From Candidatus Nomurabacteria bacterium (GTDB lineage Bacteria > Patescibacteriota > Saccharimonadia > Saccharimonadales > Saccharimonadaceae), in contig JAITSF010000043.1 in assembly GCA_031287975.1 (NCBI GenBank), positions 1 through 16,038 of the forward strand: a DNA stretch of 16,038 nucleotides, given 5' to 3'. Below the pieces are notes generated by a model, which did no database searches, was not told the origin of the DNA, and saw only the letters and a list, made by a program, of their open reading frames with translations. Of the stretch, positions 11,570 to 16,038 are shown one piece after another (within the stretch, counting starts at the first letter, position 1; each line of letters begins with the position of its first letter). A program made the position numbers and the translations under genes.

Positions 11570-11572
11570 AAA

Positions 11573-11914
11573 GCTAGATTGCCGTAAGCCGGATTTTGTC
11601 GAGGGCGATCATCTATCTATGGATACCATTGCTGGTACTCTATAGCGGGTTCATACAATCTGTTGACGAGCAGCCAATAACCAGATTTCCTTGCAGCCGA
11701 CAGGGTTTACCTCCAGAATATGTCGCCATATTCTGCTGTACGCTCTTACCGCACTCCTTTCACCATTGCCGTTCCTATGAAGGACTTAGGCTGTATCGTT
11801 TCTGTGGCACTTTCCCTAGAATTACTTCTGGTCGCCGTTAACGACTGTCGTTGCTCTATGCTGTCCGGACTTTCCTCTCCTTTTTCAAAAGGGGCGATCA
11901 CCTAGCAATCTAGC
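11573..11914 (-). ncRNA. rnpB: RNase P RNA (M1 RNA)
   Basis: About 342 nucleotides on the minus strand, the catalytic RNA that trims tRNA 5' leaders. The ends form a perfect 10-bp P1 helix, GCTAGATTGC (5', 11914-11905) with GCAATCTAGC (3', 11582-11573). The conserved regions are all visible in order: GAGGAAAGTCCGGAC (11877-11863), CCACAGAAAC, GGTAAGAGCGTAC, GGAGGTAAACCC and AAAATCCGGCTTA near the 3' end. The layout looks bacterial type A. P1 is followed by TTTTT (11572-11568), so the P1 3' strand and U-run could themselves stop transcription. The promoter sits in the 3' end of rplT. Confidence 0.95.
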
Positions 11915-14868: not shown

Positions 14869-15251
14869 TGGTGGAGCTGGCGGGTACTGCCCCCGCGTCC
14901 AAACGACAATAAATTGATTATCTACGAAGCCTAGTTAATTTTTAAATACTCGGATTGTTACGAAAACAAACAAAAATCACAACCAAGCTCATTTTTTAAA
15001 ATTTAACATTGCTTAGAAAAATAAGAAACACACAATGCGACCAACATGATTATAACGCTTATATTTTGTATGTTGGCTCGAAAATATAAACGGTCGCCGA
15101 AATTAAGCAGCGACTAGCGCAAAAGTCGGGAAAGCAAAAATGCTTCGGACTGTTGCTAAAACGTTAGATTTTACATCTAAATGACTTAACGTTGTCAACG
15201 GCTCGCCAATCAATCTATTAAGTTTCGTCTGTCGAAAGCTGTATCAGCCCC
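14869..15251 (-). ncRNA. ssrA: tmRNA (transfer-messenger RNA)
   Basis: 383 nucleotides on the minus strand. The RNA frees ribosomes stalled on broken messages and adds a degradation tag. The 5' end GGGGCTGATACAGCTTTCGA and the 3' end CCGCCAGCTCCACCA form the alanine-type tRNA-like domain; GGGGCTG pairs with CAGCTCC (one G-U) and CCA is encoded. The 5' half continues GACAGACGAAACTTAATAG, as in other bacterial tmRNAs. The resume codon GCA follows the conserved TTTTA, and the tag frame ends in TAA at 15105-15103. The region after the tag is AT-rich and contains several pseudoknot-like pairings. It is a one-piece tmRNA, not permuted. The promoter and terminator are both visible. Confidence 0.96.
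15103..15156 (-). other. tmRNA tag-peptide reading frame (inside ssrA)
   Basis: Starting at the GCA after GTTTTA, the frame reads ATVRSIFAFPTFALVAA and stops at TAA. The tag is 17 encoded residues, plus the alanine carried by the tmRNA. The ALVAA end is the hydrophobic degron expected for ClpXP-type proteases. The middle part (IFAFPTF) is aromatic and unlike the acidic AANDENYALAA of E. coli. Confidence 0.75.
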
Positions 15252-15444: not shown

Positions 15445-15473
15445 TTGACACAAGCGTTTAATAATGATAAAGT
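15445..15473 (+). promoter_or_regulatory. Promoter of structured RNA candidate C
   Basis: Consensus TTGACA (15445-15450), 17 bases, TAAAGT (15468-15473). The expected start at about 15480 coincides with the first base of a 12-bp hairpin. Confidence 0.5.
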
Positions 15474-15479
15474 GAAGAT

Positions 15480-15800
15480 AAGTTTTTATAAAACAAACAT
15501 ACAAGTTAAATTATAAAAACTTGCACCTTCTAGCACTGACCAACATTTGAATCAGAACCGACGTTATGGCGGAATGATTGTTGAGCTTGGCTCCAAAATT
15601 TCTGCAATATCGTCAAACTGGTTCAAATGCGCGTTGAGCCACTGTTTCTTCCGATACGCTCCGCGGTATGCTCCTTTTTGGAGTGGTCAGTAGGCCCAAG
15701 TGCCATAAATCTGACTCGCGCCCTTTTAGTAATTAATCAAGTGGCGGATGAGCATGTCGCAAGACTTCATGATTGTTTTGGCACTTTGGGCCAACTTTTT
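15480..15800 (+). ncRNA. Unassigned large structured RNA (candidate C)
   Basis: About 320 nucleotides with a dense set of long-range helices. A 5' hairpin pairs AAGTTTTTATAA (15480-15491) with TTATAAAAACTT (15511-15522). P1 is ACTGACC (15535-15541) with GGTCAGT (15685-15691). Inside it, P2 pairs CATTTGAATCAG (15544-15555) with CTGGTTCAAATG (15618-15629), 12 bp with one U-G. GCGT/ACGC (15631/15656) and GCTCC-TTTTT-GGAGT (15670-15684) follow. P6 pairs GGCCCAAGTGCC (15693-15704) with GGCACTTTGGGCC (15780-15792), one bulge, and is followed by TTTTT (15796-15800). Within P6, CATGTC-GCAA-GAC...ATG has a GNRA loop. The G-U pairs and GNRA loop only work on the plus strand. Overlapping reading frames have no supporting features. 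Family not recognised. Confidence 0.55.
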
Positions 15801-15818
15801 AAACCGTCAAAAAAATGC

Positions 15819-15827
15819 TATGATAAT
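15819..15827 (+). promoter_or_regulatory. -10 box TATGATAAT of the terminal membrane protein gene
   Basis: TATGAT (15819-15824), overlapping GATAAT (15822-15827), lies 7 bases before the ATG at 15832, and no Shine-Dalgarno is present. It is separate from the candidate C promoter, so the gene is probably leaderless. Confidence 0.45.
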
Positions 15828-15831
15828 GTTT

Positions 15832-16038
15832 ATGAATTTTATTAAATCGCCGAAGTTCGCTTTGTTCCTGACGTTGGTATCTGTCGCAACGTTGGCAGTG
15901 TTGTTTATCGCGACCGACCCGCAAAGTGCCAGATTATCAGGAGTATTGGTCGCGATCGTGGCTTTGTACGGAGTCTTTTGGGGTGTTTTCTTGCTTGTAA
16001 GTGAACTACTTTTTTATAAAACACTCAAAAACCGGAGG
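15832..16038 (+). CDS. Small membrane protein, 3' end cut by the window
   Basis: The first 69 residues are visible, starting MNFIKSPKFALFLTLVSVAT. Two TM segments are clear: about residues 8-27 (FALFLTLVSVATLAVLFIAT) and 35-60 (LSGVLVAIVALYGVFWGVFL and beyond), followed by a basic stretch (YKTLKNRR). A short polar loop (DPQSARLSG) joins them, so both ends are probably cytoplasmic. The family is not recognised; the frame is still open at the last base. The start is chosen from the -10 box 7 bases upstream. It follows structured RNA candidate C by about 30 bases. Confidence 0.6.
   Translation, partial: MNFIKSPKFALFLTLVSVATLAVLFIATDPQSARLSGVLVAIVALYGVFWGVFLLVSELLFYKTLKNRR

Follow-up and report, generated by a model that had tools for sequence, protein, structure and literature searches.

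The 3' end of the window, by which we mean the whole stretch of 16,038 nucleotides analysed here (contig JAITSF010000043.1 of a Candidatus Nomurabacteria bacterium), holds an interval of some 320 nt between the tmRNA gene and the gene of a small membrane protein, which an earlier note had put forward as an undescribed structured RNA. The question raised by this locus is whether the interval is an RNA gene of its own, whether it belongs to a known family and with what partner it may work.

Position and architecture of the RNA

The interval is a structured RNA gene of about 320 nt on the plus strand, at approximately 15480-15800; its start was taken from the promoter and its end from the U-run. 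The promoter named in the earlier note lies at 15445-15473 (+) and consists of a -35 TTGACA, a 17-nt spacer and a -10 TAAAGT with TG, giving 10 of 12 consensus matches. Both flanking genes named in that note were recovered as well. The membrane-protein gene starts at 15832 on the plus strand and is cut by the contig end at 16,038, and the tmRNA gene (ssrA) lies on the other side of the RNA, at 14869-15251 on the minus strand (Rfam match). ARAGORN missed this tmRNA, and in locus L002 the tmRNA has an orientation relative to the RNA element unlike that in the window and in L003. A class A RNase P RNA was also detected in the window, at 11570-11913 on the minus strand (Rfam score 243.5).

Folding against shuffled controls, which had been proposed as a check, gave a minimum free energy (MFE) of -112.1 kcal/mol for the plus strand of 15470-15805, with z = -6.6. 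When the MFE folds of window-form sequences were compared by eye, 8 of 9 had the same architecture, L016 deviating in the 3' half. All of the following elements are on the plus strand. The predicted 5' hairpin was found at 15479-15522 (MFE; arms 15479-15491 and 15511-15522) and has an A-rich loop; of the 54 relative loci with a promoter, 41 have an A-rich motif at most 60 nt past the -10. The first domain (15535-15691; MFE, alignment) is closed by ACUGACC (15535-15541) pairing with GGUCAGU (15685-15691), the latter being invariant in the short-form alignment described below. It encloses the 12-bp stem P2 at 15544-15629 (CAUUUGAAUCAG/CUGGUUCAAAUG, arms 15544-15555 and 15618-15629; MFE, relatives), a small stem at 15631-15665 formed by GCGUUGAGC (15631-15639) with GCUCCGCG (15658-15665), seen in the MFE folds of the window and its relatives, and a hairpin GCUCC/GGAGU at 15670-15684, immediately 5' of GGUCAGU (relatives, alignment). 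The closed multi-branch core that the earlier note had drawn, with its closing stem, 12-bp P2 and smaller inner stems, is present in full.

The 3' domain, P1, spans 15693-15792 (arms 15693-15705 and 15779-15792; MFE, relatives) and is followed by a terminator-like UUUUU at 15796-15800. The earlier note had described a 12-bp stem followed by TTTTT; stem and U-run are both there, the stem consisting of 13 pairs with a bulge and enclosing a three-way junction. This junction (CUGA, 15711-15714 / UCAU, 15767-15770) forms the conserved core at 15711-15770, identified from relatives. Within it lie an arm of CUCG-CGCC (15715-15722) and GGCG-ga-UGAG (15743-15752), whose loop contains AGUAAUU, and the hairpin GUCGCAAGAC at 15756-15765 with the GCAA loop that had been noticed before. 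Reading the 3' stem as a terminator and nothing else was ruled out by the conserved three-way junction that it encloses.

Comparison with known RNA families

Scanning the window and 13 further loci with all 4227 families of Rfam 15 at permissive thresholds yielded sub-threshold noise alone. On the window RNA itself, at E ≤ 5, the sole touching match was to a human lncRNA model, sub-threshold and on the opposite strand. A known Rfam family was rejected, the sub-threshold matches to DLEU2_4, IMES-1, DUF805b, gyrA and miRNAs being taken as noise; none of the families that the earlier note had singled out for such a scan (SRP, 6S, GOLLD, ROOL and raiA) was matched by the window RNA. The raiA-motif, GOLLD and ROOL RNAs are large structured bacterial noncoding RNAs, and the present RNA resembles them in this respect; it differs in having no Rfam match in any scan. 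The RNA was also absent from the literature searched (titles and abstracts) and from passages of PMC8321541, PMC12265935, PMC10768705 and PMC11665869, and the terms searched were not found in PMC8040213 and PMC2864571.

We are all but certain that the RNA family is real and structured and, within the searches made, undescribed. The candidate of the earlier note has in this sense held up, through the missing Rfam 15 match, the compensatory changes in relatives and the lack of a conserved reading frame in the short forms. Large structured noncoding RNA genes next to a membrane-protein gene are a known kind; this family lies outside every described one tested.

Searches for 6S RNA (RF00013) gave no match over the cut-off in 41 relatives, apart from a single weak hit in G038 (locus L108) below it; small SRP RNA (RF00169) was found in none of 41 and large SRP RNA (RF01854) in none of 26 relatives. 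The same three models matched 5, 11 and 6 of 14 control genomes, respectively. The SRP and 6S RNAs of these relatives are either strongly diverged or absent, and these counts are what one would see if the RNA were the lineage's substitute for one of them. Such a substitution is nevertheless very improbable: at E ≤ 5 the window RNA matched neither family, and its core, as we understand it, has neither the SRP domain IV layout nor the 6S bubble.

Distribution in Saccharibacteria

At the DNA level the element was found in 6 of 61 genomes, the window's own included. A larger set of loci was obtained with the N-terminus of the ATPase encoded downstream, the 80 Saccharibacteria loci used being the best 80 of 139 found. 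Model R1 comprised six sequences of the window's form and model R2 39 short forms; the window has a long form, and a form of about 200 nt occurs in most loci collected. At E ≤ 1e-3, 63 of the 80 loci matched R1 (12 loci) or R2 (51 loci), in every case on the strand of the gene and upstream of the ATPase; since 39 of these are R2 seeds and three are identical to R1 seeds, 21 matches are independent. The other 17 loci comprise 13 with a gut-clade motif (derived by eye from such loci, with up to 4 mismatches), L039 with the core pattern, L069, where R2 matched weakly (E 0.019), and two cut-off loci, L023 and L067, with only 840 and 429 bases 5' of the match. By model, motif, core pattern or weak match the element was present in all 78 uncut loci among the best 80 of 139, and a search of the 80 minus strands gave no match to the core pattern. 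The assemblies carrying it are mostly smaller than 1.3 Mb. Its occurrence in every uncut locus of such assemblies makes it very likely, as far as sequences can tell, that the function of the element is important.

In whole genomes, R2 matched 53 of 195 members of the class, the window's genome and most of its family being without a match, and 7 of 192 genomes in a phylum-wide draw, all of them inside the class. With strict filters R1 matched 4 of 197 genomes of the order, and with laxer filters 8 of 40 from the window's family, both counts including the window's own genome. From these low counts it follows that R1 and R2 miss many diverged forms.

Covariation, coding potential and strand

The earlier note had made its candidate depend on compensatory changes in relatives, and these are present. 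In the short-form alignment 95.2% of the pair cells are standard, against 32-55% paired in slid controls, and 10 of 15 pairs have changes in both partners. Two-sided changes occupy 58 cells versus 18.6 ± 4 in shuffled alignments, a number reached in 0 of 500 shuffles. A tree-based null was calculated with a custom script, not R-scape, from 40 alignments simulated on a FastTree tree (4656 column pairs). Eleven column pairs had E ≤ 0.05, of which 4 belong to the 15 pairs of the model. Six non-model pairs are helix fits or extensions (66-87/86, 49-105/107, 11-23 and 12-22), the doubled partners in 66-87/86 and 49-105/107 arising from alignment slippage; the pair 70-75 does not fit the model helices. 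The remaining 11 of the 15 model pairs were above E 0.05, several of them being invariant and missing the threshold for lack of variation.

For the window form, changes were counted helix by helix, with arms picked by eye from MFE folds. Two-sided changes occurred at 25 helix positions, of which the 3 in the small hairpin are unreliable because L002 stands there in a shifted register; the closing stem was counted without L028 and the inner P1 without L002, and the stem at 15631-15665 lay outside the count. Among the relatives, 7 of the last 10 pairs of P2 and 10 of 11 counted positions of the 3' P1 change on both sides, the P1 arms being widely divergent in sequence with the pairing kept. The closing stem ACUGACC/GGUCAGU has two-sided changes at 0 of 7 positions. 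The fold is supported by these compensatory changes, and the structure is under selection.

That no coding frame accounts for the region, as had been stated, is borne out in part. The short-form alignment contains no conserved reading frame, any frame being open in at most 6 of 39 sequences, and a coding gene was rejected on this ground. In the window itself a 72-aa frame (15627-15845) overlaps the element, as does the 5' end of a 97-aa frame that runs from 15748 onward. As to the strand, the short forms have 20 G-U versus 10 A-C cells, of 585, an excess which moderately favours the plus strand. The earlier note had held its U-G pairs to be consistent with plus-strand transcription only; the preference agrees with the G-U excess, and the exclusiveness does not stand, as the minus strand of the interval 15470-15805 also folds below shuffles (-107.3 kcal/mol, z = -5.5).

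A separate RNA gene or a leader

In nearly all uncut loci the RNA lies on the same strand and upstream of the same operon, a position in which riboswitch and attenuator leaders are alike. The RNA could accordingly be a cis-acting leader (riboswitch, attenuator or protein-responsive element) of the membrane-protein/TraD operon, its 3' stem and terminators serving as the expression platform. Of 63 relative loci, 54 have a promoter with a score of at least 10 ahead of the RNA, compared with 7.7 (4-14) in dinucleotide shuffles, a count in which some best-scoring picks are clearly not the element's own promoter. The sequence between the RNA and the gene was then analysed in 62 loci, 6 of 68 having been dropped from both of the following tests. 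Intrinsic terminators were present in 28 of the 62, where shuffled sequences averaged 1.05 (0-3 of 62, 20 shuffles), and a terminator in this place is likewise what an attenuator would have. Close to the start codon, 29 of the 62 loci have a -10 hexamer with at least 5 of 6 matches, compared with a mean of 16.2 and a maximum of 24 in 200 mononucleotide shuffles. By this test, terminators were thus lacking in more than half of the loci, and the -10 test was likewise positive in less than half.

Terminators and -10 boxes both speak against a leader. Eleven of the 29 -10 boxes are located exactly 6 nt 5' of the start codon, which suggests that leaderless mRNAs, made from a promoter separate from that of the RNA, are frequent in the 62 Saccharibacteria loci. 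The window has an extended -10 (TGCTATGAT) of the downstream gene at 15816-15828 (+), with TATGAT ending 7 nt 5' of the ATG. Two further observations are at odds with a leader: the gap between RNA and gene ranges from 1 to 242 nt, with start codons as chosen in the analysis, and in G236 (locus L114) the RNA and the protein gene are separated by a gene that looks, by eye, like purM. The present RNA differs from riboswitch and attenuator leaders in that many of its loci have a terminator and a second promoter ahead of the gene. We therefore favour, without claiming proof, a separate RNA gene, which is likely in many lineages; that the RNA is a leader seems rather unlikely. As the best explanation overall we propose, with moderate confidence, an undescribed family of genes for structured noncoding RNAs that would be transcribed alone and act in trans.

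The membrane-protein partner and its operon

The operon 3' of the RNA encodes the small membrane protein, a proline-rich protein and a TraD/VirD4-like ATPase. The window contains the start of the first gene (15832-16038, +), and the C-terminal part of this protein family was matched at G000:C75:42-191, which is probably the rest of the same gene. Loci L002-L006 have the same small membrane protein downstream, followed, where the locus reaches, by the proline-rich protein and the membrane-anchored ATPase. The full-length ATPase of L012 (1081 aa) matched TraG-D_C, DUF87 and T4SS-DNA_transf above the cut-offs, and that of L048 matched the same three below them.

Four transmembrane (TM) helices were predicted in 52 and three in 10 of the proteins from 62 loci. 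The loop between TM2 and TM3 is net positive in 61 of 62 and, from its charge, we infer it to be cytoplasmic. An AlphaFold model of the protein (pLDDT 89.7) has five helical elements covering the four predicted TM segments, and a PDB fold search with the protein gave no match at E ≤ 0.001. Pfam and NCBIfam provided no consistent family, the most members that any family matched being 2 of 32 among the matches listed.

L111 and L113 come from another order of the class; there too, the R2 core precedes a homologous membrane protein (hhalign probability 97.9%). The flanking genes of L111 are a W/Y-type tRNA synthetase and pheS, with the same genes in L113 by eye, and a third genome of this order also has the membrane protein, at a contig start. 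As the partner is kept in L111 and L113 despite other neighbours, the RNA and the 4-TM protein tend to stay paired while the rest of the neighbourhood differs.

Forms outside the class

The membrane-protein family was found in 47 of 192 genomes of the phylum; upstream of the protein, such an RNA was absent by eye in 14 of 19 phylum loci, a point against the explanation favoured here. The upstream regions of L114, L123, L129 and L132 have a hairpin with a C-rich loop 5' of CUACUG or UUACUG. A third model, R3, was seeded with L114, L123 and L132 and has two-sided changes in 7 of its 16 pairs. It matched 14 of 379 genomes, of which 10 are outside the class, one of these 10 being a seed; the 14 include the seeds G224 and G405, both found through the protein. 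In 11 of the 14 genomes, and in 9 of 12 independent non-seeds, the membrane protein follows within 1.5 kb on the strand of the RNA; it was not found within this distance in G221, G379 and G331. The upstream gene was RmuC in 6 of 6 R3 loci tested, and other frames can intervene between the RNA and the protein gene.

R3 had no match in 21 Saccharimonadales sources (window included), in L111-L113 or in L129, and R2, run unfiltered on the R3 loci, gave a best E of 0.058. The bridge between the two models consists of L114, an R3 seed carrying both an R2 match and the R3 domain, plus a similarity of the cores seen by eye. Since R3 misses the Saccharimonadales and R2 misses the R3 loci, relatives outside the class that form one phylum-wide family with the Saccharibacteria RNAs are probable and not proven. 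By eye, L150, L151, L152, L154 and L155 have minimal forms of about 100 nt, made up of a promoter, a hairpin with a GCAACCCCCUUGC loop and a U-run, with the membrane-protein gene downstream in 4 of 5.

These forms bear on another explanation, that of a regulatory RNA which, in the forms outside Saccharimonadales, would pair with Shine-Dalgarno sequences through the C-rich loop (CCCCCCUU and similar) or CACCUCCUUU. The C-rich loop is common to L114, L123, L129, L132 and the loci found with R3, and the C-rich hairpin and the U-run are just what the minimal forms retain. The failure of R3 to match the Saccharimonadales sources, L111-L113 and L129 argues against base pairing as the function, and we regard it as improbable.

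A possible membrane ribonucleoprotein

According to passages of PMC12265935, the commonest gene next to OLE RNA is oapA, and OapA, a protein with four predicted TM helices and a cytoplasmic cluster of positive charge, binds OLE RNA and is required for its localisation at the membrane. The present RNA resembles OLE/OapA of the Bacillota in that a structured noncoding RNA gene adjoins the gene of a small 4-TM protein with a basic loop, a likeness known here from sequence. It differs in phylum and in size, OLE having about 600 nt in the abstracts seen versus about 320 nt for the window RNA. The OLE covariance model of Rfam 15 had no match in the window and the 13 further loci. The Pfam family of OapA, which we take to be DUF3021, was absent for 32 members of the partner family among the matches listed (25 of 36 families). 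Because of the missing Rfam match and the missing OapA Pfam match among those listed, the window RNA is, by these comparisons, not a member of OLE.

As a mechanism, we suggest that the folded RNA would be a scaffold for the neighbouring 4-TM protein, which it would bind through the protein's basic loop, and that the two would work at the membrane as a ribonucleoprotein, like OLE RNA with OapA; in Saccharimonadales this particle would have a connection with the downstream operon of the TraD/VirD4-like ATPase. Where other neighbours change, the 4-TM protein remains beside the RNA, as OapA does with OLE; an OLE-like membrane ribonucleoprotein is our leading mechanism, to be taken as tentative. 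It would be a possible second OLE-like partnership of RNA and membrane, outside the Bacillota, and would concretely connect an RNA with a membrane protein and, in Saccharibacteria, with a TraD/VirD4-like ATPase. More doubtful is the wider proposal of an RNA family of the whole Patescibacteria (CPR), changing in shape between lineages from about 100 to about 450 nt, that travels with the 4-TM protein as a membrane ribonucleoprotein and may be tied in Saccharibacteria to a TraD/VirD4-like apparatus for host-cell life.

Inside the RNAs of L111, L112 and L113 we also observed CACCTCCTTTT / TTACCTCCTTTCC, presumably the same letters as the 3' end of 16S rRNA.
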